Positions 3,351 to 39,119 of a stretch of DNA of 39,368 nt are shown here, piece by piece. The first letter of the stretch is position 1. Each line of letters starts with the position of its first letter. Made by a program: the position numbers and the translations under genes. A model generated the notes under the pieces. The model did no database searches. It was not told the DNA's origin and saw only the letters and a list, made by a program, of their open reading frames with translations. Origin of the DNA: a virus; IMG/VR virus record IMGVR_UViG_3300015261_000009, positions 1 through 39,368 of that record, one strand, 5' to 3'.

Positions 3351-3443
3351 ATGGACTACAGCGTTTGGCTCTGGATCAAAATCGTTGGCTTTGCCGTTAT
3401 CTGCTTCGCAATCGCCTTCTGGAAAGCTCTCAACGGGCGATGA
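3351..3443 (+). CDS. 30-residue single-span membrane peptide, antisense to the late operon
   Basis: A 31-codon frame on the plus strand begins ATG at 3351 and ends TGA at 3441-3443, overlapping the convergent ejection-protein stop by 14 bp. The peptide is MDYSVWLWIKIVGFAV followed by more hydrophobic residues and the basic end FWKALNGR. This is a convincing transmembrane helix with a positive C-terminal flank. A purine-rich GGTGGAAAATG lies upstream. No nearby plus-strand gene would carry it, so expression would need its own promoter. It could be chance; its hydrophobic, well-formed architecture and use of a gap between minus genes are the arguments for it. Confidence 0.35.
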   Translation: MDYSVWLWIKIVGFAVICFAIAFWKALNGR

Positions 3444-5766
3444 GTGCTGGCGCCGAGCGGTAGCCGATGGTGCGCGCCCCTTGGCTCAGGGCGTTCCTCA
3501 GCGCATTTGTTTGTGGCTCGGACAAAAGCCTTGCTGCTTCCTGCGGGTCGAGCAAAGCATTGCCAAGACGCTCTTGGATTTGCTTGTTCGCGGCCCCATA
3601 GGGGAGTTGCAACACGCGTCCCATGGTCGAAGTGGCGGCGGTTGATCCGCCCAGCGTCCCGCCAAGCGCCCCCTGAAGGAGTTGGTTCTGAGCCAGGTTT
3701 TGCACGGTGTTTGACCCGACCGCCCTGCCTACGTTGTTGGCGATCTGCCCCGCATTCAAGTCGGCCTGAATGTTGCGGAGCACCTGAAGTTGCGTAGGGC
3801 TGAGTTCCTTTACCAAGTCGCTGCCCTTGTTCTTCAGCACGTTATTCAACTTTGCTGCCGAAATGATCGCGCCCCCCTGGGAGTCCACCGAGCCCGTTTG
3901 GATGCTCTTAAGAATTTCCTCAAGCCGCTCCATCTGGTTGATTGGAATGCTTTCCTTGGCGTAGCGGTCGAGGTAGCCTTTCCAGTTCGGCGTGCCCTTC
4001 GTGGTGGGGCCGATGGCGTTTGCAGGCATAGAGCGAGAGGCTTGATCTATGGCGTCATCAATGAAGCCTTTGACACCGGACAGCTGAGACGCCGCGTACT
4101 TCAGATTCCCAGCCTCCCCTTGCAATTTTCCGCCTAGCACATCATTGATGTCCTTGCGGATTGCATAGAGCGCCCGCGCATCGATCGTTCCGTCTTTGGT
4201 AAAGCCAGCGATGCGCGACTTGAATTGATTGAGTGCTTGTTGCGACAACTGCCCCGCGTTGTTCGGGTCACCAATGAGATTGTCGATCTGACGCAGGATT
4301 CCATCCGCTGGGACCTTGCCTGCTGCATTAAGCGCTTCTTCGCGCATCGGCCCTGTCAATGCATTCCTGGCCTGCTTCGCGAGATCGATCTTGCCAGTGT
4401 TGCCGGCAATGCCCTCAATGGCAGACGTGCGAGCCTGGTTCTGCGCCGTCTGCCGCGCCGCCAAGGCGGATGCGTATTCAGGACTTGCGTTCTGCATCGT
4501 CCGACTGAGCGCCGCCAGCCCCTCGTCGCCGGCAGCCATCGCGGTTGTGGGCATCGAGCCTGAAACCATTGGGGCAGCGCTGCGAAGCTGTGCCAATGCA
4601 TTGGCCGGGTTCGCCGCTGTGTTTCGGAGCACATCCCCTGCGATGCGGTTTTGACCGGCAGCATAGAAAGGCCGAACGGCAGAACCCAAGGCATTGCCCG
4701 CGATAGTCGCAACTTTCCCGACCACAGGCATGGCCGCGCCTATTCCAGCGCCTAGGCCCGTCGAATTGGGGTCGATCAGTCCAGCGGTTGCGCCGCCAGT
4801 GATGGCGCCCCCCACACTGCGGATGCCAAGATCCGCGGCCCCACTCAAGAACCCCGGAGCCACCTTTTGTGAAGCCGTCATGCCACTGCTGGCAAGCGCG
4901 TTCCCGAGCCGTCCGAACCCAGCTGCGCGTGCACCAGCACCCAACGCAGGACCAACCGGCAGCGTTGCGAGTACGTTCCCGCCAACGCGGCCTGCACTCG
5001 CGAGCGAACTATCGCCGTACTGGTCCTGGAATTCCTGTTTGCCCTGCTGGTTCATGGCGCGGACTCGCTCGCCCTCAGAGCCGCCAGTCAGCTTGTCAAC
5101 GCCGGATGCCAGCAACTGCGCGCCAGTATCGATGGGGTCTTTCACGCCACGCGCGATGCCCATAACGATAGCATCGGAGGCATTGGGCGTGTTGTTGCCC
5201 GCCTCGCGCCGAGCCTTGGGGTAGACGCCGAATGCTGCTTTTGGCTCGTCAGGCCCCGCGCTCTTCTGAGCGAACGGGTCGAAATCCACAGCGACCAGCT
5301 GGGGTCCGGTAGCAGCCTTGGTTGGCGTCATCTTCGCAGCGGTCGAAACCTTGGCGACGTAGCTAGGATCTTCCGCGTAGCCGCCGCTCTTCAGGGCCTT
5401 GGCGAAATCTTCGGGCGTCTTGGCATTGACGGCGTTCGGGTACTTCCGCTGGATCAGGCTGACGTAGTCGTCAACGAACTGATCCGGCGACTCGTAGGCG
5501 CGGTACTTGTCGCGACTGCCGGTCATGTTGTCCGTCGCTGCCGTTCCGCTGCCCGAGAAGTCTTTGATGTTGCCCAGGTTGTTGGTGCCGGGGATAACGC
5601 TCTTGCCCCATCCGGTTTCCAGGCCCCATTGTCCTAGAACGACCTTCGGATCAACACCGAGGGCCTTGGCCGCTTTCTCCGCAGAAGCGCCGTAGCGCGC
5701 AGCGAAGTCATCCGGCGTAGTGGACTTCTTGAAGGGGTTGAATTCAACCGCGACGAGTTCGGCCAT
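3430..5766 (-). CDS. Large ejection (internal virion) protein with N-terminal muramidase domain
   Basis: The 778-residue product starts MAELVAVEFNPF at 5766, overlapping the previous stop as TAATG with ribosome site GAGGTGA. Residues about 20-145 resemble a GH73/FlgJ-type glucosaminidase: the catalytic glutamate is probably Glu50 in WGLETGWGKS, with NNLGNIK and the YRAYESP beta-hairpin following. The centre is rich in Gly and Ala with hydrophobic stretches (AGARAAGFGRLGNAL, GAITGGATAGLIDP), typical of proteins ejected through the cell envelope. The rest is helical. I infer that it is packaged inside the capsid and cuts peptidoglycan during DNA entry. The motif LVAVEFNPF recurs near residue 157 as LVAVDFDPF. 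Confidence 0.8.
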   Translation of the reverse strand: MAELVAVEFNPFKKSTTPDDFAARYGASAEKAAKALGVDPKVVLGQWGLETGWGKSVIPGTNNLGNIKDFSGSGTAATDNMTGSRDKYRAYESPDQFVDDYVSLIQRKYPNAVNAKTPEDFAKALKSGGYAEDPSYVAKVSTAAKMTPTKAATGPQLVAVDFDPFAQKSAGPDEPKAAFGVYPKARREAGNNTPNASDAIVMGIARGVKDPIDTGAQLLASGVDKLTGGSEGERVRAMNQQGKQEFQDQYGDSSLASAGRVGGNVLATLPVGPALGAGARAAGFGRLGNALASSGMTASQKVAPGFLSGAADLGIRSVGGAITGGATAGLIDPNSTGLGAGIGAAMPVVGKVATIAGNALGSAVRPFYAAGQNRIAGDVLRNTAANPANALAQLRSAAPMVSGSMPTTAMAAGDEGLAALSRTMQNASPEYASALAARQTAQNQARTSAIEGIAGNTGKIDLAKQARNALTGPMREEALNAAGKVPADGILRQIDNLIGDPNNAGQLSQQALNQFKSRIAGFTKDGTIDARALYAIRKDINDVLGGKLQGEAGNLKYAASQLSGVKGFIDDAIDQASRSMPANAIGPTTKGTPNWKGYLDRYAKESIPINQMERLEEILKSIQTGSVDSQGGAIISAAKLNNVLKNKGSDLVKELSPTQLQVLRNIQADLNAGQIANNVGRAVGSNTVQNLAQNQLLQGALGGTLGGSTAATSTMGRVLQLPYGAANKQIQERLGNALLDPQEAARLLSEPQTNALRNALSQGARTIGYRSAPALIAR

Positions 5767-7133
5767 TATTCTTTCACCTCGAACCATTTGCCGTTTTGTT
5801 GGACATAGTACTTGCCATCAGGAGCGCGCTCGGCTCGCATTTCCTGGCCGCCGATGTTGAGTGTCTTGCTGGATGGGCTCCCTTTCTTCAATGGAACACC
5901 GGGCTTCGTGGCAGCAGGCTCACCGCGGACCTGGGCGACTCGAGTCTCGGAGTCCGGCACTTCTGCCAAGATACCGCGCATTGCAACTTCGCGATTGCGC
6001 TTCTTCTGCGCGATCACTGCATCGCTGTCTCCGGTCTGCGGGAAGTATTGCTTGTCCCCACTGTTGAATTCGGATTCGCCGATGACGGCGCCCGATTCAC
6101 GCCGCAGCACTGCATTCAGGAAATCCCGCTTCGCTTGGTCGAGCCGCTGGCGATCTGCGGGTTGAAGTGCATTGATCGCTGCGCCCACTCCGAAGCCAGC
6201 GCGAGAGCCGGGAATCGAGGTGGTAACGCCGCTGGCCGCCAACTCGTCAAAGATCGTGTTCGCTTCCTGCATGCGAGTGCCGAACAACAGCGCTTTGGAT
6301 TGGCCGTCAGTCAGAGGCTTGCCACCGCCTGCCTTGGAGGTTGGATCAGCAGGGCCGCCAGGGATGAATTCCAGCGACTGCCCATCTGCCGCAAGCCTAT
6401 ACCCAGCAGGAACCCTGCCAGCAGCATTCCCTTGTGCGCGAATGGCGTTCTGCTCCCTCATCCGCGCGTCGGTCATTGCGGCATTCGCTGCGGACTGCTG
6501 CGTGCTCGCTACGCTGTCTGGCGATTGGGTGCGAGCTTGCACGTTCGCGATCTCGACCTGACCAGTGATGGGGTTCGTCCGCTGGGTCTGAACCGTCCCG
6601 CCCATGTTCTCTGTCGTGAACTTGCCAAGCACCTTCTCTGCGTCGGCGCCCCAGCCTTGGGCGATCTGGCGGAGTTGGTTGGGGTCGTTCCGGGCTGCAT
6701 AGATCCGCGCCTTCGCGCCGTCCACCATCTGGGGAGGCAGGCCGTACAGCTGCGCCGTTTCGGAAAGGGTGCGGATTGCGTTCTCTTCCGTAGGGTTGGC
6801 AAGGATCATCGTCGCCCCTTGCTTCATCCCCTCTGCCGCAGCTTTGCCGCGCTCTGCCTGAGCCTTTTGCTGTTCGGTCTGGAACTTCGCAACCTCCATC
6901 GACTGCTTGCCGAGGCCGGCTTTCTGGAGTGCCGTGATCTGATCGACACCTTGCACGCCAGAGCGGAGTACTTGCCGGTAGGCGTCATCATCGGCAATGC
7001 CGCGCTGTGCCTGCTGGAGTTGCAGTGCCCCCAGTTGGGATTGCTGCAACTTCGCTTGCATCTCTGTTGGGTCTTGCAGAGGCGTGACGCCGCGGCCAGC
7101 CTGAAGAATGATGTTGGGGTCAAGTTGTGCCAT
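5766..7133 (-). CDS. Probable DNA-ejection structural protein
   Basis: The 455-residue protein is hydrophilic and mostly helical and very rich in Gln and Ala (LQQSQLGALQLQQAQ). The conserved phage block RRESGAVIGESEFNSGDKQYFP lies near residues 345-366, and a small beta-rich C-terminus follows (YYVQQNGKWFEV). It sits between two other ejection-type proteins in the same arrangement as P22 genes 7, 20 and 16, and overlaps the downstream gene by one base. I infer an internal virion protein that leaves the capsid with the DNA. No enzymatic motif is visible. Confidence 0.7.
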   Translation of the reverse strand: MAQLDPNIILQAGRGVTPLQDPTEMQAKLQQSQLGALQLQQAQRGIADDDAYRQVLRSGVQGVDQITALQKAGLGKQSMEVAKFQTEQQKAQAERGKAAAEGMKQGATMILANPTEENAIRTLSETAQLYGLPPQMVDGAKARIYAARNDPNQLRQIAQGWGADAEKVLGKFTTENMGGTVQTQRTNPITGQVEIANVQARTQSPDSVASTQQSAANAAMTDARMREQNAIRAQGNAAGRVPAGYRLAADGQSLEFIPGGPADPTSKAGGGKPLTDGQSKALLFGTRMQEANTIFDELAASGVTTSIPGSRAGFGVGAAINALQPADRQRLDQAKRDFLNAVLRRESGAVIGESEFNSGDKQYFPQTGDSDAVIAQKKRNREVAMRGILAEVPDSETRVAQVRGEPAATKPGVPLKKGSPSSKTLNIGGQEMRAERAPDGKYYVQQNGKWFEVKE

Positions 7134-7135
7134 GG

Positions 7136-8350
7136 TTAGCCCTGGTAGCGGCTTATCGCGTTGTCAAGCGCAGCCTGGTTTGATGGGTTGCTTTGCCCAT
7201 TGAACCCATAGTCATAACGAGACTGCCCGGCGCCGTCGAGACGGTTGCCAGAAAGCATGTTGTTCCAGTTGTACGAGTTCGCCGCCTGGTTGATGCCGGA
7301 TTGCAAGGCGTTTCCTCCTGCGACGGCCGAGGCTGCATTCACATTGCCGCTGGCGAGCATGTTCCCGGAGATCTGATTTGCGGCTTGCTGATTACCAGCC
7401 CCCACCTGAGCGGCCGAGTTCTGGCCGAGCGTGGACGCACCCGTAAGGAAGCTGTAGATGCGGCTGCGGTTGTTGTCGTAGGCGCTCTGGTTCGTGTTCC
7501 AGGTGCTTTGCGCGCGGTTGAAGCCTTCGTTGAACTTCGTGCCGGCGTAGTCCTGGTTGAAGCGATTCAGTTCCTTCATGGCCGCACCGGAGAGGAAATT
7601 CCCCCGCGATGCCTGACCGCGCTCGATGCCTTGCGTTCCTTGGTTCAGGCCGAATTGATAGCCGGGATCGGTTGCAAGGTCCTTGCCGGTGAAGCTGAAC
7701 TCTTCGCCGTTGCGGTAAGCACGAAGAAGTGAACCGTAGGCGGGGTCGCTTTCGGCCGCCCTGCTCTGTGCGTCCTGCTCTTCGTAGTACTTCGCAATGG
7801 CCGAGTTCAGGCCCTCTTCATCGATGGTCGAGCCTGGTCCTTGCGCCGTTTGCATCTGCGCACCACTGGCAGCACTGTCAGGGCTCGTCCAAAGAGGCGA
7901 GAGGTCCGTGTTCGCATTCTGCGTATTCTGGCGCTGGAAGTAGTCGTGTGCGCCACCAGCTCCAAGGGCGGCAACCGCTTCGGCGCCAGTTCGGTAGGTC
8001 GGTGCTGCAGGAGCGCCGCTTGCTCCACCTCCACCCGATGATTGACGGGTATACCGACCCAGAAGCTGTTGACGCACCTGATCCGGTGTGAGGCCGGTCG
8101 ATAGGCCCATCGACGTGCGACCGCTGCTGCCGACGCCGCCAATCCCAAGGTACTGGTTCAAGCGCGATTGCGCTGCGCCGCCAGCTTGCACCCATGGCTG
8201 AAGGTCCGCGCGCTGCTGCGCCGCCGCCATCATCTGAGCCTGGGTGGCTTGCTCCGACGCCGCGGACTGGGCGCCTGCCGCAGACTTTGCGCCGTTCGCC
8301 GAGATTGCAGCGCCGGCCACGCCTGCGACTGCTCCGATTGCTGCAACCAT
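7136..8350 (-). CDS. Probable ejection or internal virion protein, Gly/Ala/Gln/Asn-rich
   Basis: This encodes 404 residues from the ATG at 8350, which follows GGAGGACTAAC. The longer frame upstream lies inside the acetyltransferase gene and is not used. The N-terminus is a hydrophobic, small-residue stretch (MVAAIGAVAGVAGAAISANG) followed by a long Ala/Gln/Ser-rich region, a conserved segment (FTGKDLATDPGYQFGLNQG), and an Asn/Gln-rich C-terminus. The segment DPGYQFGLNQGTQGIERGQA is common in phage proteins of this position. It probably belongs to the ejectosome with the next two genes. No enzymatic motif is visible. Confidence 0.7.
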   Translation of the reverse strand: MVAAIGAVAGVAGAAISANGAKSAAGAQSAASEQATQAQMMAAAQQRADLQPWVQAGGAAQSRLNQYLGIGGVGSSGRTSMGLSTGLTPDQVRQQLLGRYTRQSSGGGGASGAPAAPTYRTGAEAVAALGAGGAHDYFQRQNTQNANTDLSPLWTSPDSAASGAQMQTAQGPGSTIDEEGLNSAIAKYYEEQDAQSRAAESDPAYGSLLRAYRNGEEFSFTGKDLATDPGYQFGLNQGTQGIERGQASRGNFLSGAAMKELNRFNQDYAGTKFNEGFNRAQSTWNTNQSAYDNNRSRIYSFLTGASTLGQNSAAQVGAGNQQAANQISGNMLASGNVNAASAVAGGNALQSGINQAANSYNWNNMLSGNRLDGAGQSRYDYGFNGQSNPSNQAALDNAISRYQG

Positions 8351-8351
8351 G

Positions 8352-8879
8352 TTAGTCCTCCAATACCTTGATGTAGAGCCGTTCCGTTTCGGTCCAGCCC
8401 ATGTGCTCGAATAGCGGCCCAGCATCGAGAGAGAGCTTTGTCCCCGTGAACATCTTCTGGACGCCCTTCTCTTTCAGCGTTCGCTCCACGAATTGAAAAA
8501 GCCGCAACGGTGTGCGACCTGTTCTGTGTTTCGGAGCGATGTAGTAGATGTCCGTGAAGGCAGACAAACTTCGCCTGTAGTGAAGGTGCGGACGGACCAC
8601 GCTGAAGTGGTAGCCGATCACCTCGCCTTCTTTGCGCGCTACGACGATATGCAACATGCCTGCATTGGCGAATGCTGCATAGGTGTCGAAATCGGGGTCG
8701 AGTTGGATCTGGTCGCGGTTCACTGCCACCTCGGCCCAGTGCAGTGGCCATAGGTGCGCCATTTCGTCTTTCACGACAAACCAATCTTCAACCGCAAACG
8801 CTACAGAGGCGTTCTTTTTCTGAGCCTCCATCGCCAATTGAAACAGTCCTGGGATACCGGCGCCAGCAAGTGCAACCAT
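8352..8879 (-). CDS. GNAT-family N-acetyltransferase within the virion operon
   Basis: The 175-residue protein resembles GNAT acetyltransferases. A beta strand (GMLHIVVARKEGEVIGYHFS) corresponds to the family beta-4 region, an acetyl-CoA-binding-like turn follows (APKHRTGRTPLRLFQFVERTLKE, a degenerate Q/RxxGxG/A), and the C-terminal strand HMGWTETERLYIKVL matches the usual GF-x-E/Y-x4 ending. Acetyl-CoA-dependent modification of an unknown amine is the expected reaction. The frame extends to a TTG at 8885, but the ATG at 8879, just after the hydroxylase stop, is the better start. Its coupling to a 2-oxoglutarate-oxygenase-like gene and to structural genes suggests a phage protein target. Confidence 0.8.
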   Translation of the reverse strand: MVALAGAGIPGLFQLAMEAQKKNASVAFAVEDWFVVKDEMAHLWPLHWAEVAVNRDQIQLDPDFDTYAAFANAGMLHIVVARKEGEVIGYHFSVVRPHLHYRRSLSAFTDIYYIAPKHRTGRTPLRLFQFVERTLKEKGVQKMFTGTKLSLDAGPLFEHMGWTETERLYIKVLED

Positions 8880-8881
8880 AG

Positions 8882-9475
8882 TCAAACCTTGATGTCCACC
8901 ACGAGATGGATGCGATCAACCGGGCTGTTATTCACAACCTCGTGCTCTGGCCGGCCTTCTTGATTCGGCCCCTTGCCGTTATCGAACCACCAGGCTTCAC
9001 CAGGCGCCATCCATACGCCTTCGTCACCAGCAGTGAATTCCACGCCATTGGCGCTTTGCAAACAGATGTGATGACGCTGCCAGTAGTTCGCATGCGCTAG
9101 CGTGTCGGCGTGCTTGAAGATGTGCCCACCAGGTTTCACCCGGTTGATGATGACTCGACCCAATCGAACGCCGCCGACGAACCCGAACAGGTTCATGACG
9201 AGTTGGCGGACTTCGGGCAACTTGCCGTAAACATCCTGATCCACGCATTCATGCTGGTCATAGCCAGGTGTGGCAAGGAGTGCATCGGCCTCTTCCTGCG
9301 TGGCGCACACAGCCCGCGGAGGGAAGCGACAGATGATGCTATCCACCTCGCCGAACGGGCCTTGCGGAAACGTCCGAAGATAGGTGTCGGCGGTCCAGAA
9401 CTCGGGGTTGTGTTTCAGCTTCATCAGCGCGGGTAGAACGTTGATGTTCTGGGCGATCTTCAGGAAGTATTTCAT
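8882..9475 (-). CDS. Aspartyl/asparaginyl beta-hydroxylase-like 2OG-Fe(II) oxygenase
   Basis: The 197-residue protein fits the Asp/Asn beta-hydroxylase domain family. The iron ligands are visible as H122-A-D124 (in IFKHADT) and a distal H178 (RPEHEVVNN), with R188 (VDRIHLVVDI) as the expected 2-oxoglutarate carboxylate ligand. The family oxidises aspartate or asparagine side chains using O2 and 2-oxoglutarate. The full double-stranded beta-helix core seems present (VIINRVKPGGHI, GVEFTAGDEGVWMAPGEAWWFDN). It lies between a small tail gene and the acetyltransferase. I infer modification of a virion protein, but a host target cannot be excluded. Confidence 0.85.
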   Translation of the reverse strand: MKYFLKIAQNINVLPALMKLKHNPEFWTADTYLRTFPQGPFGEVDSIICRFPPRAVCATQEEADALLATPGYDQHECVDQDVYGKLPEVRQLVMNLFGFVGGVRLGRVIINRVKPGGHIFKHADTLAHANYWQRHHICLQSANGVEFTAGDEGVWMAPGEAWWFDNGKGPNQEGRPEHEVVNNSPVDRIHLVVDIKV

Positions 9476-9477
9476 GT

Positions 9478-9738
9478 CTAGACGGCGGCTCCAGTTGCGT
9501 CACACCAAACTACGGTGGGCTTGACCTGTTGAATCCAGATCGGTTTATTGAGGGTGGTATCGAAGTAAAAGCGACCGATCCACAACACAGAGGTAGGGCG
9601 GTCTGCCGTCACACCGCTTTGCTGTGCAGTGCGGGCGTTGTTGTGAGTGCGCTGGACCCACTGGCCCCATGCAGCGGTGATCCGCCCGTCTTCTCCGACT
9701 ACGGGCTGATCGGTGGGATAGTCGTAGGAGTTGCTCAT
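9478..9738 (-). CDS. Small tail-associated protein
   Basis: The 86-residue product starts at the ATG at 9738 (MSNSYDYPTDQPVVG), which overlaps the gp10-like stop and follows GGGAGGG. The C-terminal half (VLWIGRFYFDTTLNKPIWIQ to WCDATGAAV) is a motif frequent at the ends of phage tail and fibre proteins: a beta hairpin with FDTT and a closing DATG. The N-terminal half is helical (AAWGQWVQRTHNNARTAQQ). It is probably a minor structural component near the tail accessory protein; no more specific role can be read. Confidence 0.65.
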   Translation of the reverse strand: MSNSYDYPTDQPVVGEDGRITAAWGQWVQRTHNNARTAQQSGVTADRPTSVLWIGRFYFDTTLNKPIWIQQVKPTVVWCDATGAAV

Positions 9739-11141
9739 TTCCCGACCCTCCCCCATGCCGCGACGAAGACGGTCTTGACTGGATCGGTGACACGGAACTT
9801 GAAGACCCAATCACGCGCCCGGCCAAGGTTTCGATAGACGGCCCTGCGCCTGTACTCACCTTGCTTGCCGAGCGGAACCCAGATTTCATTGCCCCACGTG
9901 TGGCCGCCATCCTTGGAGATTTGGAGCATCAGCTTCGGGTCAGAGCCTTGGCCGACGAGATCCGCAGCCCCGGCCTCCATCTCCATCCACAGTTCATCGA
10001 AGACGCTCCATTGGCCAATGGACTGATGGCGCGTGATCAGTTCGCGGGCGATGGGTGCACCGTCATCGGTGAACGTCCCATCACGGAAGTAATAGAGCTT
10101 GCCGTTCTCGTAGTCGCTCACATAGGAGCGGTCGAGGTAGTTCTGTTGGATCTCGGCGCGATGCCTGCCGGTGCCTGACTGGACCTTGCTCCAGGCCTTG
10201 GTGAGCCCGTCATACAGCCACGACTCATCGGCCGAAGGAAAGTTGATCTGATAGAGCGAATGCCCGCTCACCATGTAACTGAAGCCAGTTGCGTTCTCGA
10301 CGGCTGAATACTTCGAGAAAACGTAATCCATCTCAGGGTTGGAGACGGGCACGGCGTTGTATCCAGACAGCGTGCAAACCTGCACTGCACCGAGACGATT
10401 GCGGCGCAGGAAGATCAGCGAGTCCATGAACTTTGCCAGGGTCCACCTTGACGCAAGACCCCACTCGATAGCCGCAGCTCCAACCCGTGCAAAAGGGAAA
10501 TCCAGAGCCCCTGAGTCGCCCCAGAACTCCGTAGTCTCCGGGCCGAACAGGATGATTTGCCCGTTGTCCGCCATCACCCGAACCAGGTCATCGGGATTCG
10601 ACTCGGCCGTAGCAAAGTCCAGCGCCGCCCAGGTCAGCCCGTCATAGATCGCCGAGCAATAGAACCGGCCGGAATCAGGCTGTGTGACGACGAAGTAGCC
10701 ATTTAGGAACGTGACTGTCGTTGCGCCAGGCCAGTTCGGAGAAGTGATCTGCGCGAACGCCAACGTCGAGGTGTTGTAGATGTATCCGTTGACGCCATCA
10801 ACGATGATGATCTGCGTTCCGTTGTCGGAGATGTCAACGCGGCCTGAAGAAGTCAGCAGCGTGCCAATATTGGTCATCGTGCCATCGTTCGCAACACGCC
10901 ACAGGGTGAAGCGATTCACCACGTACAAGAAGTCTCCCTTCTTGTAGACGCCCCTAGACGGGTACGACCCGAAGTTGATGAAGGTCAGCAGACCCGGTGT
11001 TGGATAGAGCGTCAACCGCCCCTTCTCCGGGTCTTGCTGCATTTCGACGTACAGGTTCGTCCGCTTCTGCGCATCAACATTGACTGACTTGCCGACATTT
11101 CCGATACCGAACAGCGGAACCGGGCCTAGTTCGGTCGCCAT
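9735..11141 (-). CDS. P22 gp10-like packaged-DNA stabilisation / tail accessory protein
   Basis: The 468-residue, beta-rich protein resembles the phage stabilisation family of P22 gp10 (PF11134): an N-terminal RTNLYVEMQQDPEKG segment, repeated beta-propeller-like strands with YxVxN and ADNGQIILFGPETTEFW motifs, and a C-terminal region with LMLQISKDGGHTWGNE. In P22, gp10 closes the portal after gp4 and holds the packaged DNA and tailspikes. Here it follows the tailspike gene and a terminator hairpin. The ATG at 11141 has only a weak ribosome site, so translation may be modest. Confidence 0.88.
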   Translation of the reverse strand: MATELGPVPLFGIGNVGKSVNVDAQKRTNLYVEMQQDPEKGRLTLYPTPGLLTFINFGSYPSRGVYKKGDFLYVVNRFTLWRVANDGTMTNIGTLLTSSGRVDISDNGTQIIIVDGVNGYIYNTSTLAFAQITSPNWPGATTVTFLNGYFVVTQPDSGRFYCSAIYDGLTWAALDFATAESNPDDLVRVMADNGQIILFGPETTEFWGDSGALDFPFARVGAAAIEWGLASRWTLAKFMDSLIFLRRNRLGAVQVCTLSGYNAVPVSNPEMDYVFSKYSAVENATGFSYMVSGHSLYQINFPSADESWLYDGLTKAWSKVQSGTGRHRAEIQQNYLDRSYVSDYENGKLYYFRDGTFTDDGAPIARELITRHQSIGQWSVFDELWMEMEAGAADLVGQGSDPKLMLQISKDGGHTWGNEIWVPLGKQGEYRRRAVYRNLGRARDWVFKFRVTDPVKTVFVAAWGRVGK

Positions 11142-11206: not shown

Positions 11207-13294
11207 TCACGTGGGCACGCCCATCACGTCATACGTCACCGCAATTCGGAGCACACCCGCCGTGAAATTGGCCGTCTTCGCTGTGACGATAAGCCCCGTG
11301 CCTACGTTGGTGTACCGGGGGCCGTTATCCACCTCGGCCTGGAGCATGTCGCGCGAGTCGAAGGTGCTATCCACGGCGGTAAGGGAGAGGTCGGCATAGC
11401 GCGTGAGACCGCCAGTCACGCCAACCTGAAACCCTGATGCGCCTGTGATCGCCGTTTTCACCCGGCCAGAAACCCCGCGAATCAAGGAGCCCGCAGGGAT
11501 AAAGTTCGCGCTGGTCACACTCGCGCCGGTCAAAGTAATGTCGCGGATGATGGTCCGAGTCACTACCCCAGCGTTCGCCACCCTGGACTGCACGAATGTG
11601 GCGTTCGTTGTGGGCTGGCTGGCGCTCGATGTGTCTGTGTTGATGAACCGGTATTGAGATGTCTCCCCGGCGAAAGAACTCGTGGCGCTGATGCCTATGC
11701 AGTTGGTAAATGTGATGGGGGCAGCCGTGTTGGAAAGGAACTCCAAGCCGTAGCCAGTGAAATTCCCGCCATCGACGCGCACCTCATCAGTGAGGCCGGG
11801 GACGACGCAATACAGGGAACGCGGGTTGCTGCCTGAGCCCGTCCGCATGTTCGCTCGGATTCGAACATCAGACACGGTGGCGAAGTGCGCGCCGGAGGCA
11901 ATCGTGTTGATATAGAAGTCACCCCCAACAGTCGGCCCGGCGATGGTCTGCGCGCTGCGGTCGCAGTTGACCGTCACATCAATCGACTTCAGGAATATCG
12001 TCGGCTCCCAGTCGAACGGGTACACCCCTGGCAGCGCCGCATTGACCGCCGAATACAGCGCGAACGGCGACATCGTTGTCGCAATCGTGTCCGTGCCCGT
12101 AAGGCTCGATTCGATCTTGATGTTTTTGTAAACCGTACCGGGATCAACGCGGCTCAAGGAGATCGCGCAGAGGTACGAATTGGCAATGAAAAGCGTACTC
12201 CCGAGGTCGCGCACCTTGATGTCCACATCGGAACATCCGCGCGAGGTGCTGCCCGCACTGTCTCGTGCATCAGAAAGCAGAACCTGAATCGGCGCAATGT
12301 ACTGATCTTTGCAAAGCACTACCCCCCTCAGCCCCTTAATGCCCGCGAGGTAGGCCGCGCGATGGCTCGACTCAGCCACGATGTCCAGAACCACATTTTC
12401 TGCCAAGTAGTGCGCCACCGGGTAGCCGCACTCAAAGGTGCGCAACTTCGTGTAAACGTTCTTGTTGTTGCCGAGACTCGCAGTTGCATAGTCCCCCGAA
12501 CGAACGCCATAGCGGAGGTATTTCAACTCTGCATCAACGGTGATATTCGAGCAGCCATTTTTCAGATTGATGAAGGTTGCCCCTCGGTAGCCGATGCCAG
12601 TCGTCGCATTGCTTTTGTCCGCGATTGGCACACCCTCGTAGTTCACCCCCAAGCACGAGAAATCAGTGCAGGCGTCCAGCATGAACACCGCCGAGACGCT
12701 ATCGACAGCATAGGCCCGGCTGTCGTACAGGACCGCGCCATCTCCCTTGATCGTGATCCCCGTTTGCGCCGTGAATGTATGGAGGGCCGTGCTCTCCGCC
12801 CAATTGACATTGTAGCGGTACGTCAGGAAATCAAAGGCTTTTTCACCACTGCTGAGCATGGCCTGAATCGCCGCAGTGTGGTCCAGCGTCGGAGCGCCGG
12901 ACAGCACATCGGTACGCAGGGCGTTCGTCATGAAATCCAGCGGAGTAACGGACTCTCGGCCCTTGCGCTGCAGCGTGTCAAGCACCGCCCCCGTGCCGGC
13001 CTGAAGAAAGCCGACGCCATTCGCCCCACCCGCCGCAGCAAGGTCTACGGTCTTGACCTTGGCATCGAGGGCGGCCTGAAGATTGTCACCGTCTGCGGTG
13101 CCAACAAGTTCGGCGCCATCATCAGCCGCAAGATCTACTTTCTTGACAACGCCATTCAATAGTTGGTCGCTGAGAAAAGTCTTGATTTGGTTGATGTCGA
13201 TTTTCCAATTGCTGAAGTCCTGTGCGATTGGAAGATATTCATTCCCGGTGATGTTCTCAAGCCGGGCGAAATCGGTGATCTTCTTATTGGTCAT
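11207..13294 (-). CDS. Tailspike / tail fibre with predicted right-handed beta-helix
   Basis: The 695-residue protein has a short head-binding-like N-terminus (MTNKKITDFARLENITGNEY to IKTFL), a linker with two related KVDLAAxxGA segments near residues 51 and 86, and the typical tailspike motif GRESVTPLDFMT to DHTAAIQAMLSSG. A long central region follows with parallel beta-helix character (TGITIKGDGAVL, CSNITVDAELKYLRYGVRSGD, NNKNVYTKLRTFECG). The C-terminal part is beta-rich. Such spikes bind and often depolymerise surface polysaccharide; catalytic residues cannot be assigned by eye. It overlaps the gp4-like stop as ATGA. Confidence 0.8.
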   Translation of the reverse strand: MTNKKITDFARLENITGNEYLPIAQDFSNWKIDINQIKTFLSDQLLNGVVKKVDLAADDGAELVGTADGDNLQAALDAKVKTVDLAAAGGANGVGFLQAGTGAVLDTLQRKGRESVTPLDFMTNALRTDVLSGAPTLDHTAAIQAMLSSGEKAFDFLTYRYNVNWAESTALHTFTAQTGITIKGDGAVLYDSRAYAVDSVSAVFMLDACTDFSCLGVNYEGVPIADKSNATTGIGYRGATFINLKNGCSNITVDAELKYLRYGVRSGDYATASLGNNKNVYTKLRTFECGYPVAHYLAENVVLDIVAESSHRAAYLAGIKGLRGVVLCKDQYIAPIQVLLSDARDSAGSTSRGCSDVDIKVRDLGSTLFIANSYLCAISLSRVDPGTVYKNIKIESSLTGTDTIATTMSPFALYSAVNAALPGVYPFDWEPTIFLKSIDVTVNCDRSAQTIAGPTVGGDFYINTIASGAHFATVSDVRIRANMRTGSGSNPRSLYCVVPGLTDEVRVDGGNFTGYGLEFLSNTAAPITFTNCIGISATSSFAGETSQYRFINTDTSSASQPTTNATFVQSRVANAGVVTRTIIRDITLTGASVTSANFIPAGSLIRGVSGRVKTAITGASGFQVGVTGGLTRYADLSLTAVDSTFDSRDMLQAEVDNGPRYTNVGTGLIVTAKTANFTAGVLRIAVTYDVMGVPT

Positions 13295-34605: not shown

Positions 34606-35231
34606 GCAAAGCAATTCAACCTGTCGCGTGGTGGATTCCTGAGGCCGAACAGTTCTGCATGAACACGCCGGAAGGCCGGCCCTTCGCAAAGCACTGGGAG
34701 CCGCTCTACGCCACCCCTCTCGCCTCCCATGCAGGAGCCGAGCCACAGTGCATCGTCAGAATGGCTGATGGCGCCCGTGAGCCCGAGTTTGTGTCGTGGA
34801 ACGCATTTCCGGTTGGGACGCACATGCTCTACGCCACCCCTCCCGCCGCGATACCGGCCGCCCCGAGCACAATTCAACTGCTTGCCATCACCACGGCCTA
34901 TGAGCAGGGTGTCGGCAAAGGCCATCAAGCGCACCGCGGCGGCGTCGAGATTGCCAACCCCTACACGCCAGAGTGGGGATGCAAAGAGGTGTGGGCGCTC
35001 GGGTACGACGAAGGCAAGGAACAAGCGGCCCGCGAACTGGCCGCCGCCCTCACTCATCCCACCACCGTGCAGCAGGCCTGGGCGATCGAAGATGACCCGT
35101 ACTACAACCTGCTCGGTGTTATTGCCGATGCAAAGTTTGGCAACTTCAACGCGGTGTGCATCGAAACATTGGAGCGCATTGCTGTCCAACTCAAGACCGC
35201 GCCCACTGATGCACCAGGGGATGCGGGATGA
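34602..35231 (+). CDS. Hypothetical PLYATP-type early protein
   Basis: The 209-residue product (MSKAIQPVAWWIPEAEQFCM) opens with the pattern PVAW...EPLYATP common to small modular phage proteins; LYATPP recurs around residue 77. The C-terminal half is helical (YEQGVGKGHQAHRGGVEIAN, KVWALGYDEGKEQAAREL type). Function is unknown. Its stop overlaps the methyltransferase start as ATGA. Confidence 0.65.
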   Translation: MSKAIQPVAWWIPEAEQFCMNTPEGRPFAKHWEPLYATPLASHAGAEPQCIVRMADGAREPEFVSWNAFPVGTHMLYATPPAAIPAAPSTIQLLAITTAYEQGVGKGHQAHRGGVEIANPYTPEWGCKEVWALGYDEGKEQAARELAAALTHPTTVQQAWAIEDDPYYNLLGVIADAKFGNFNAVCIETLERIAVQLKTAPTDAPGDAG

Positions 35232-36529
35232 CGGCCTATTACAACGAGTTCGATCCGAAAGCTGCGGCTGTCGTGCGTGAGCTCATCAAGGCTGGGCACA
35301 TCGCGCCTGGTGTCGTGGACGAAAGGAGCATTGAGGATGTCGTACCAGCTGAACTTGTGGGATACACCCAGTGTCACTTCTTCGCCGGATTCGGCGTCTG
35401 GAGCTATGCACTACGTCGAGCCGGATGGCCTGACAACCGCCCTATCTGGACGGCCTCATGCCCTTGCCAGCCTTTCAGCGCGGCAGGCAAAGCAGCTGGG
35501 TTTGCTGACGAGCGGCACCTCTGGCCCTCCCTCTACCACCTCATCGATCAGCTCCGACCTGCAGAGATCACTGGAGAGCAGGTTGCGAGCAAAGACGCGG
35601 ATCCTTGGATCGACCTTGTACAAGCTGACTTGGAAGCCTTGGGTTACGCCTTCGGGGGTGTCCCGTTTCCGTCTGCGGGCGTCGGCGCCCCGCACATCCG
35701 CGACAGGATCTACTGGCACGGCCTCAGTCGAACTCGGCGCGTGGCCCACGACAAGGGCCTCAGACGGCGAAAAGAATATGCGCACGCTCGAAGGAGCGAT
35801 GTCGGAGATCGAACGCAAGGGATCCCCGCAGGACCTATGCATGGCGGCGGTGCTGGCGGGGCCGGCCCGACTAACGGCTTCTGGGCATCTGCTGATTGGC
35901 TCGGATGCCTCGATGAAAAGTGGCGGCCAGTTGAGCCCCGCCCACAGCCGTTGGTTGATGGGTCTTCCCGCAGCCTGGGACGAGTGTGCGATTCGCGCCT
36001 TGAAGAAATCGAAGGGGAAGTAAATGCGTGGTCAATGGAAAGCCAAGTCAAGCGAGCCGAGGCAATGCGAAACCTGCTCGTGCACCTTGGAGCGCAGACG
36101 CAACGATGCTGGGCGGCTGGAAGGCTTCCGGGACTTCATGAGGCGCCGTTTTTGCTCGCTTTCATGCGCCAACTCCAGGAGCAAGGGTGGCGAGTCGCGG
36201 AAGGCGTTGCACTACCACGCGAGGAAGCAGCGGACCGAGACCTGCGAGTGCTGTGGAGCGTCGAAGAGATTGCAGGCGCATCATGTGAACGAGGACTGGA
36301 AGGACAACCGACCGGAGAACCTTCAGACGCTGTGCGTTTTCTGTCATGCCTTCTGGCACGCCATGCATCGGAGGCTTGGGCTGACGCCTACGCTGCGCAT
36401 GCCGAAATTGGTTTCCCCCTCGCCACTGGAGCTCAAGCCCGAGTCGCAAGGCTCCGAGGGTTTGGCAATGCAATCAATGCAGAAGCCGCCAAAGCGTTCA
36501 TCGAAGCAGTGATGGAGGCAACCCCATGA
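35228..36529 (+). CDS. Cytosine-C5 DNA methyltransferase-like protein with large internal insertion
   Basis: The 433-residue frame has C5-methyltransferase motifs: motif I CHFFAGFGVWSYALRRAGW, motif IV SCPCQPFSAAGK with nucleophile Cys80, motif VI-like GEQVASKD, motif VIII VGAPHIRDRIYW, and at the very end motif X RLRGFGNAINAEAAKAFIEA. It would methylate cytosine to protect phage DNA. Related proteins are nearer 250-330 residues by recollection. Residues about 245-394 have no methyltransferase likeness and coincide with an HNH nuclease gene in another frame. Residues 60-240 overlap a second gene, also in that frame. Whether the full frame makes an active enzyme is uncertain. Confidence 0.72.
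   Translation: MTAYYNEFDPKAAAVVRELIKAGHIAPGVVDERSIEDVVPAELVGYTQCHFFAGFGVWSYALRRAGWPDNRPIWTASCPCQPFSAAGKAAGFADERHLWPSLYHLIDQLRPAEITGEQVASKDADPWIDLVQADLEALGYAFGGVPFPSAGVGAPHIRDRIYWHGLSRTRRVAHDKGLRRRKEYAHARRSDVGDRTQGIPAGPMHGGGAGGAGPTNGFWASADWLGCLDEKWRPVEPRPQPLVDGSSRSLGRVCDSRLEEIEGEVNAWSMESQVKRAEAMRNLLVHLGAQTQRCWAAGRLPGLHEAPFLLAFMRQLQEQGWRVAEGVALPREEAADRDLRVLWSVEEIAGASCERGLEGQPTGEPSDAVRFLSCLLARHASEAWADAYAAHAEIGFPLATGAQARVARLRGFGNAINAEAAKAFIEAVMEATP
35337..36023 (+). CDS. Overprinted phage protein in the second frame of the methyltransferase
   Basis: The 228-residue product starts at ATG 35337 (MSYQLNLWDTPSVTSSPDSA) with a strong AAGGAG site 9 nt upstream. It carries motifs I recognise as recurrent in phage proteins: SLESRLRAKTRILGSTLYKL then TWKPWVTPSGVSRFRLRAS, and QLSPAHSRWLMGLPAAWDEC. 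The motif GSTLYKLTWK is the +1 reading of the methyltransferase motif VI region, so the two share DNA over more than 600 bp. It ends TAA immediately before the HNH start. Function is unknown. Confidence 0.6.
   Translation: MSYQLNLWDTPSVTSSPDSASGAMHYVEPDGLTTALSGRPHALASLSARQAKQLGLLTSGTSGPPSTTSSISSDLQRSLESRLRAKTRILGSTLYKLTWKPWVTPSGVSRFRLRASAPRTSATGSTGTASVELGAWPTTRASDGEKNMRTLEGAMSEIERKGSPQDLCMAAVLAGPARLTASGHLLIGSDASMKSGGQLSPAHSRWLMGLPAAWDECAIRALKKSKGK
36024..36512 (+). CDS. HNH endonuclease embedded in the methyltransferase gene
   Basis: The 162-residue protein has two zinc-binding parts: CETCSCTL with FCSLSCANSRS near the N-terminus, and CECCGASKRLQAHHVNEDWK, DNRPENLQTLCVFCHAFWH, a full HNH core (His-His, Asn, His) with CxxC pairs. 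It probably nicks or cuts DNA, as in free-standing homing nucleases. Start ATG follows directly after the previous TAA. Its last 35 residues (ending MQKPPKRSSKQ) overlap methyltransferase motif X. No group I intron core can be seen around it; flanks are too short. Confidence 0.82.
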   Translation: MRGQWKAKSSEPRQCETCSCTLERRRNDAGRLEGFRDFMRRRFCSLSCANSRSKGGESRKALHYHARKQRTETCECCGASKRLQAHHVNEDWKDNRPENLQTLCVFCHAFWHAMHRRLGLTPTLRMPKLVSPSPLELKPESQGSEGLAMQSMQKPPKRSSKQ

Positions 36530-37370: not shown

Positions 37371-37768
37371 ACAAACTGCCCCCTGATCTTGAGGCGCTTA
37401 TGCCGGAGCCCGTGAAGCTCGTCACGGCTTGCGAGGATTGTTGTGGGACCGGCCACACCGGCGAATCTCAGTATATGGGCGAGTTCCAGCCACCCGAGTA
37501 TGAACGCTGCGGCTCGTGCGACGGATCGGGGAAATGGATCGTCGATCACCACTCCCCCACCCAGATGCGCGAGGCCATCCTTGCTGCGACGGAGAGAGCG
37601 GCGAAGGTGTGCGACGAAATGGCGGACCGGCTTTCCATGCAATGGCGCCAGGAGCACAAGACCAGCGCGCACCTCGAAGGTCAGTCCGATGGCGCATTCG
37701 ACTGTGCCACCGCTATCAGGGGTGCTGCCGCCTCTACCGGGCGGGGAGAGGGGGGAGAGGGAGTATGA
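37367..37768 (+). CDS. Small protein with DnaJ-like zinc motifs
   Basis: The 133-residue product (MNKLPPDLEALMPEPVKLVT) contains CEDCCGTGHTG and CGSCDGSGKW, two CxxCxGxG repeats like the DnaJ cysteine-rich domain, likely binding one zinc ion. The rest is helical (REAILAATERAAKVCDEMAD). No J domain is present, so it is not a full co-chaperone. It overlaps the excisionase start. Confidence 0.7.
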   Translation: MNKLPPDLEALMPEPVKLVTACEDCCGTGHTGESQYMGEFQPPEYERCGSCDGSGKWIVDHHSPTQMREAILAATERAAKVCDEMADRLSMQWRQEHKTSAHLEGQSDGAFDCATAIRGAAASTGRGEGGEGV

Positions 37769-37980
37769 GCGCGAACGAAGCAAACTATCGCTGGGTGAAG
37801 CTGCGCAAGCACTGCGCCGACACGGGGGACACCCCGGATGCCGTGCACGCCAGGCGCCGGAAACGGGTCTGGACGGACGGAGTACAGTGCCGCCTCGGGC
37901 CGGACGGCAATCTCTACATCAACCCCGAGGAGTACAACAAATGGGTGGAAAACCAGCCATCGACTGCCCGCGCGGCGTGA
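37765..37980 (+). CDS. xis: Excisionase (recombination directionality factor)
   Basis: The 71-residue product (MSANEANYRWVKLRKHCADT) matches excisionase-like small winged-helix proteins: YRWVKLRKHCADTGDTPDAV, HARRRKRVWTDGVQCRL, then NLYINPEEYNKWVEN. It bends DNA at attP and steers integrase towards excision. Start ATG 37765 (GGAGAGGGAG) overlaps the previous stop as ATGA. It overlaps the integrase start by 40 nt, a standard xis-int pair. Confidence 0.88.
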   Translation: MSANEANYRWVKLRKHCADTGDTPDAVHARRRKRVWTDGVQCRLGPDGNLYINPEEYNKWVENQPSTARAA

Positions 37981-39119
37981 GCGTCCGCGAGTTCAAGCAC
38001 GAAGAGCGGATCCAGATCGCATTCAGCTACCGGAACACCGAGTGTCGGGAGCTGCTGCCGCCTCAGAAGGTCACCAAAAGCGCGCTCCAGTATGCCTCGG
38101 GCCTGCGGCTGGAAATCCAGCGGAAGATCAAGGACGGCGTTTTTGTGTACGTCGAGTACTTCCCGGAGAGTGCCAGGGCCAAGCAGTTCGGCAACTCCCG
38201 GCATGTGCTCATCGGGAAACTTCTCGAGAAGCAGCTGGAAACCTATGAGCGCCAGGTGGAGAGCAACAGCCTGTCGCCCAGCACCATGGACGGCTACCGC
38301 AAGGCCATCAACAGCGAGCGCATGCAGTTCTGGGCCAAGAAGACTTTGGCCGAGGCCACGCCGAGCGCCCTGCGCGCCTGGATCGGCGACATGAAGGTGA
38401 CGGCCAAGTTCGCCCGGAACCTCCTGACGCCCCTGCGCAGCGTTTTCGAGGACGCGCTGAACGATGACCTGATCGCGTTCGACCCATTCGAGCGGATCGC
38501 CCTGACCAAGCTGCTCAAGCAGACGGCCACGGCCAGCGAATACGCGGTGGACCCGTTCACCGCCGACGAGCGCGCGACAATCATAGGCGCGGCCCGGGCG
38601 GACGAATGGCCGATGATCCAGTTCTGGTTCAATGCCGGCCTGCGGCCCGGCGAGATGATCGCCCTGAAGTGGCCCAAGGTGAACCACAAGGCCGCCGTGG
38701 TGCGCATCGATCTGAATCAGGTGTCCGGCGTCGAGAAGGGGCCGAAGACCGCGGCCGGGATCCGGGATGTGGACCTGAATGCAGATGCAACGGCCGCCCT
38801 GAAGGCGCAGGAGGCCGTCAGCCGGGCCAAGGGCGAGCATGTGTGGCTCAATCCTGCCAGCGGCGAACCATGGACCACGGACGCCCAGATCCGCAAAACC
38901 CTGTGGGTGCCCCTGCTCAAGCGGTCAGGCGTGCGCTACCGGAACCCCTATCAGGCCCGGCACACCTACGCCAGCGCCGCCTTGACCGATGGCGCAAACC
39001 CGTGGTATCTGGCTGAGCAGCTTGGGCACGAGGACGCCACGATGGTCTTCACGATCTACGGCAAGTTCATCGGCGAGGACTACAAGAAGCCCAAGGCCAA
39101 GCTCAAGGCGGTAGGCTGA
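37941..39119 (+). CDS. int: Tyrosine integrase
   Basis: The 392-residue product starts at ATG 37941 (MGGKPAIDCPRGVSVREFKH). It has an N-terminal arm-binding domain of the Min27/DUF3596 type (IQIAFSYRNTECRELL to GVFVYVEYFPES), a core-binding domain (YERQVESNSLSPSTMDGYRK), and the catalytic domain: Arg in AGLRPGEMIAL, box II NPYQARHTYASAALTDG with Tyr where the usual His stands, and Tyr in HEDATMVFTIYGKFI. It catalyses site-specific recombination between attP and an ssrA-like attB. attP lies directly downstream. The frame upstream of 37941 is not used. Confidence 0.93.
   Translation: MGGKPAIDCPRGVSVREFKHEERIQIAFSYRNTECRELLPPQKVTKSALQYASGLRLEIQRKIKDGVFVYVEYFPESARAKQFGNSRHVLIGKLLEKQLETYERQVESNSLSPSTMDGYRKAINSERMQFWAKKTLAEATPSALRAWIGDMKVTAKFARNLLTPLRSVFEDALNDDLIAFDPFERIALTKLLKQTATASEYAVDPFTADERATIIGAARADEWPMIQFWFNAGLRPGEMIALKWPKVNHKAAVVRIDLNQVSGVEKGPKTAAGIRDVDLNADATAALKAQEAVSRAKGEHVWLNPASGEPWTTDAQIRKTLWVPLLKRSGVRYRNPYQARHTYASAALTDGANPWYLAEQLGHEDATMVFTIYGKFIGEDYKKPKAKLKAVG

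Follow-up and report, generated by a model that had tools for sequence, protein, structure and literature searches.

A hydroxylase and GNAT gene pair linked to the ejection-protein gene of short-tailed phages

The window analysed here is a stretch of 39,368 nucleotides (IMG/VR virus record IMGVR_UViG_3300015261_000009, positions 1 to 39,368), for which no nucleotide relatives were found among named phages. Its minus strand encodes terL, portal, scaffold and major head protein as well as a run of genes in which a putative 2-oxoglutarate/Fe(II)-dependent hydroxylase (HYD) adjoins a GNAT-family acetyltransferase-like protein. In the direction of the minus strand, the genes of this run are the following:

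9735-11141, minus strand: head-closure Hc3 / P22 gp10-like protein (phrog_578, E 6e-100)
9478-9786, minus strand: small ORF upstream of HYD, with a C-terminal motif common to virion and tail proteins
8882-9475, minus strand: HYD, predicted 2-oxoglutarate/Fe(II)-dependent hydroxylase with HxD...H plus R (PF05118)
8352-8879, minus strand: GNAT-family acetyltransferase-like protein (PHROG 1249), conserved part from about 8804, start codon uncertain
7136-8350, minus strand: P22 gp7-type DNA ejection protein, N-terminus MVAAIGAVAG (phrog_598, E 4e-14)
5766-7133, minus strand: second putative ejection-region protein, by position and conservation in relatives
3430-5787, minus strand: third putative ejection protein, with an N-terminal glucosaminidase domain (PF01832, E 2e-22)

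The initial annotation had placed the pair among virion genes, and this position within the structural cassette holds, with Hc3 and a virion-like ORF upstream and the ejection protein downstream. The ATG of the ejection gene lies 1 bp past the GNAT stop. The small ORF is not constant in relatives, and the 5766-7133 protein matches no family of known function. The Hc3 gene is presumably the start of the transcription unit. Terminator-like sites (11185-11168 and 3334-3313) flank the stretch from Hc3 to the ejection genes; because such matches are no commoner than in shuffles, we only infer that its genes, HYD and GNAT included, are co-transcribed late. The plus strand carries DNA methyltransferase and integrase genes (35228-36529 and 37443-39119), and the integrase, together with a repressor-like gene on the same strand, suggests that the phage is a temperate podovirus.

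HYD is a single-domain protein of 197 amino acids that matches the Pfam family Asp_Arg_Hydrox (PF05118) with an E value of 2.5e-11 and 44.1 bits, above the curated cut-off of 22.6. The residues H122, D124, H178 and R188, already pointed out in the initial annotation, are present at this ORF and invariant in an alignment of 98 diverse relatives, where the only other invariant positions are G116 and N182. H122, D124, H178 and R188 correspond to the metal triad HxD...H and the arginine that binds 2-oxoglutarate. The AlphaFold2 model (pLDDT 91.9) is predicted to adopt the double-stranded beta-helix fold, and Foldseek retrieves 2-oxoglutarate oxygenases, the first being L-proline cis-4-hydroxylase (PDB 4p7w, E 1.5e-9, TM 0.67), followed by a nucleoside-antibiotic hydroxylase, proline 3-hydroxylase and human AspH. 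A profile search of solved structures likewise returns 4p7w first (E 2e-11), with AspH and proline 3-hydroxylase behind; 4p7w shares with HYD the PF05118-type fold and the HxD...H triad. Human AspH differs in that it has HTG, lacking the metal-binding Asp, where the phage protein has HAD, and in that it carries a TPR domain. On these two grounds HYD is not AspH proper. The Asp/Asn specificity assumed earlier is thus unsupported: because of the HTG and HAD difference, "Asp/Asn hydroxylase" reads from the sequence as a family label and assigns no substrate.

The adjacent protein (175 amino acids) matches PHROG 1249, "acetyltransferase", with an E value of 1.3e-14. Its Pfam GNAT match is slightly below threshold (19.9 versus 20.7 bits), and relatives exceed it (28.5 and 32.4 bits). 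A family profile built from 99 sequences matches solved GNATs (E 3.5e-5 and <1e-3), NAA30 among them, and sequence comparison thus places the protein in the GNAT superfamily. The family has 11 invariant columns, including H22, H75, Y76 and K123. The putative acetyl-CoA loop reads RTGRTP in the window protein, departing from the family consensus RxGxxG (superfamily motif R/Q-x-x-G-x-G/A). A GNAT-type ORF two bases from the hydroxylase on the same strand had been described earlier, and we find it there, with a gap of 2 bp if translation begins at ATG 8879. This start is uncertain because the nearest relatives begin about 25 codons downstream, leaving the window protein with about 25 extra N-terminal residues.

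We searched with the HYD alignment and obtained at least 505 confirmed viral relatives, from which we took the 80 best. Among these 80, a GNAT gene comes next on the same strand wherever there is room downstream; the two loci without one (L020 and L062) end at or just past HYD. Bacterial genomes, mostly from Burkholderiales and other Proteobacteria, yielded 22 HYD loci that are probably prophages, and 18 of the 22 have the pair. Counting phages and prophages together, at least about 97 non-redundant loci keep the pair, a pairing that exceeds chance. Named phages that carry it are Pseudomonas phage PfAn1 (pair at 11626-12690 of its record, ejection protein XRX11818.1) and Limnohabitans phage DC33. 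The distance from the HYD stop to the GNAT match is mostly -8 to +7 bp, meaning that the genes overlap or abut, and no fusions of the two were found among the loci scanned. We found no described hydroxylase-GNAT pair in the literature on its function.

Two peculiarities of individual loci were seen. In L008, L009 and L095, HYD and GNAT are separated by an HNH/AP2-like endonuclease ORF that runs on the opposite strand and sits exactly at their junction. In-frame TAG codons occur in both genes in L018 and L019 (6001-7120) and in L170 (Dyella jiangningensis CP007444, 8001-9006); in HYD they fall at positions where relatives have Gln, which suggests TAG-recoded phages or prophages that retain the pair.

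Of 137 loci, 124 have a member of one and the same ejection-protein cluster (P22 gp7-type) right after GNAT. On the other side of the pair the picture is mixed, the genes that precede HYD in 154 loci making up 44 clusters. The initial annotation had named a random neighbourhood in relatives as an observation that would count against a role in virion modification, and on the downstream side we observed the opposite. A HYD clade without GNAT (80 loci from a further scan, plus L004, L186 and L189) keeps the same neighbour: HYD precedes the ejection gene directly or via one small gene, and 23 of the 54 loci left after removal of redundancy have a recognisably cupin-like gene there. The link between HYD and the ejection gene thus holds whether GNAT is present or absent. 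In L331 (4545-4901; Pfam Cupin_2, E 8e-7) and many of the loci L304-L383 a small cupin occupies the GNAT position. Where GNAT occurs without HYD, as in zobellviruses and others, the next gene is mostly that of a small ejection-like protein whose N-terminus is hydrophobic and rich in Gly and Ala. Variovorax phage VPv81 (L389, about 3400-3790) has GNAT and a small ejection-like TM-coil protein together upstream of the portal gene, outside their usual position, and ctEw122 (L386, 2893-3396) has a distant GNAT between the terminase and portal genes with no ejection gene beside it.

The N-terminal stretch is the most conserved part of the ejection protein, ranking first among 203 and first among 218 windows of the conservation profile, in which the first three columns are conserved by row selection and only later columns count. 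Residues 2-4 are VAA in 59 of 91 loci with HYD and GNAT, the N-terminus is MPW in 40 of 50 loci with HYD only, and T7 gp14 begins with MCWAAA. Proline at residue 2 is found in 45 of 50 loci without GNAT and in 1 of 91 with it (Fisher 6e-30), a covariation that amounts to one evolutionary split, or one independent pair on the tree. In about a dozen loci with both genes (L023, L045, L060, L150, L173 and others), a charged leader of about 15-25 residues precedes the VAAA-like motif and often ends in [FY]C plus one residue; it is possibly a cleaved propeptide.

For controls we took eight phages that have the ejection protein, no HYD match and no close GNAT match. Most of them keep a similar ejection N-terminus (MSVVAAA or MSGVATA), and for that reason HYD or GNAT alone is not the cause of its conservation. 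We rejected an N-terminal "code" as independent proof of modification because the covariation is one independent pair and a similar motif persists in these control phages. The upstream slot in the controls holds cupin-like proteins (assigned by eye, without Pfam support), a cupin-like/SET-like fusion or a GNAT-like protein (E 0.027, sub-threshold), contents that are compatible with a slot for modifying enzymes. Rhodoferax phage P26218 and ctfPj964 have the fusion immediately before the ejection gene (L392, 946-1821, and L393, about 1017-1880); the SET (methyltransferase) match of the fusion is sub-threshold (E 0.015).

As the best explanation, in which we have about even confidence, we propose that HYD and GNAT act late, in virion assembly, as a module that specifically serves the downstream ejection protein (P22 gp7 / T7 gp14 class), the product of 7136-8350 being the likeliest substrate or partner. 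Both enzymes would presumably be translated from one transcript together with the head-closure and ejection proteins and would act on newly made ejection protein prior to its packing into the capsid. With 2-oxoglutarate, Fe(II) and O2, HYD would hydroxylate one residue of this protein; GNAT would add an acetyl group to an amine, which may be that of the mature N-terminus. So modified, the hydrophobic protein would stay competent for packaging and for later membrane insertion. From the conserved residues and linkage we infer the two enzymatic activities, as well as which substrate is modified, at which site and to what advantage, and gene neighbourhood alone looks the same whether the pair modifies the ejection protein or is merely co-transcribed with it. 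Retention of the pair in phages with in-frame TAG codons and in spite of the HNH-like insertion speaks for the module. Several phages that have the same ejection protein and neither gene, or a cupin instead, count against a dedicated module.

A wider version of this explanation we consider unlikely. Short-tailed phages would have a "modification slot" directly before the gp7/gp14 ejection gene, filled by interchangeable enzymes (hydroxylase, GNAT, cupin or cupin-SET-like fusion) that target the mature ejection N-terminus, with residue 2 matching the enzyme set. Residue 2 is mostly Val with hydroxylase and GNAT, Pro with hydroxylase alone or with a cupin, Ser with a cupin, and often Ala or Gly with GNAT alone. 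If this were true, a hydroxylated and acetylated ejection protein would be, to our knowledge, the first known.

T7 gp13 (PF11090) lies 4 bp before the ejection protein gp14, matching the slot of the phage GNAT. Its AlphaFold2 model (pLDDT 93.7) has GNAT topology, and the top Foldseek matches are GNATs, including RimI and Ard1, with probability 1.00; a predicted GNAT in this slot speaks for the best explanation. It differs in that its alignment is without an RxGxxG-like acetyl-CoA loop and in having no hydroxylase partner; no sequence homology to the window GNAT family was detected (hhalign probability 0.5%), and the two are linked by slot and predicted fold class. P22 gp14 (PF11039) lies 2 bp before gp7, again matching the slot. 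A profile comparison with the window GNAT family gave no link, an acyltransferase hint is weak (E 0.24), and it is the slot that connects the two. In an alternative reading that we think improbable, the GNAT-fold protein acts without catalysis, as an assembly chaperone or adaptor of the ejection protein, HYD modifies something in the complex, and T7 gp13 and perhaps P22 gp14 may be similar adaptors. The predicted retention of the fold in T7 gp13 despite the missing loop, the Pfam label of its family ("probable scaffold protein"), the P22 gp14 position and the degenerate loop of the window protein are in keeping with such a role. However, the 11 invariant columns and the consensus RxGxxG fit a working enzyme, and a GNAT fold in P22 gp14 is unsupported at the sequence level.

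A host target is quite improbable in our view. Here the pair would modify a host component such as RNA polymerase, the ribosome or a defence protein late in infection, and its position would offer a convenient late promoter. The precedent is Rac, a GNAT of phiKMV-like phages that leads to cleavage of the RNA polymerase alpha subunit (PMC7552054). Its gene also borders the structural genes and overlaps the first of them (annotated as a phage particle protein in LUZ19), and Rac matches the window GNAT family weakly by profile (hhalign probability 11%). Unlike the window system, Rac acts on the host and has no hydroxylase, whereas the genes studied here stay tied to one virion gene even in widely diverged phages whose genomes differ strongly, VPv81 included. 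Least probable of all is that the pair modifies a tail fibre, tailspike or head-closure protein, since the tail-like or head-closure genes upstream that prompt this idea vary between phages while the downstream ejection gene is constant, and in the HYD clade without GNAT, too, the neighbour is the ejection gene. The constant downstream and variable upstream genes thus favour the ejection protein over tailspikes as target, and of the earlier suggestion that virion proteins are modified we keep the leading idea and consider tailspike and fibre less likely.

A conserved slot for putative enzymes beside the ejection gene, T7 gp13 included, offers a direct way to test in cultured phages how these hydrophobic proteins remain in solution, get into the capsid and later form a channel across the cell envelope. 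If maturation of the ejection protein by HYD and GNAT is true, oxygen-dependent hydroxylation would be added to the chemistry of tailed-phage assembly.

Both halves of the pair have counterparts in earlier work. 2-Oxoglutarate/Fe(II) oxygenases and Asp/Asn hydroxylases have been reported from cyanophages and pelagimyophages (PMC3037559, PMC7029224), and ORF8 of Limnohabitans phage DC33 is a phage-borne oxygenase (PMC12195039). The passages on these genes in the three papers treat them as auxiliary metabolic or core genes and connect them with neither an ejection protein nor a GNAT. GNATs that adjoin internal virion proteins have already been noted, and the marine-phage GNAT of SIO1 and cobaviruses was proposed to be the counterpart of T7 gp13 from its GNAT domain and position (PMC6775973). 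The fold predicted here for T7 gp13 supports that proposal.
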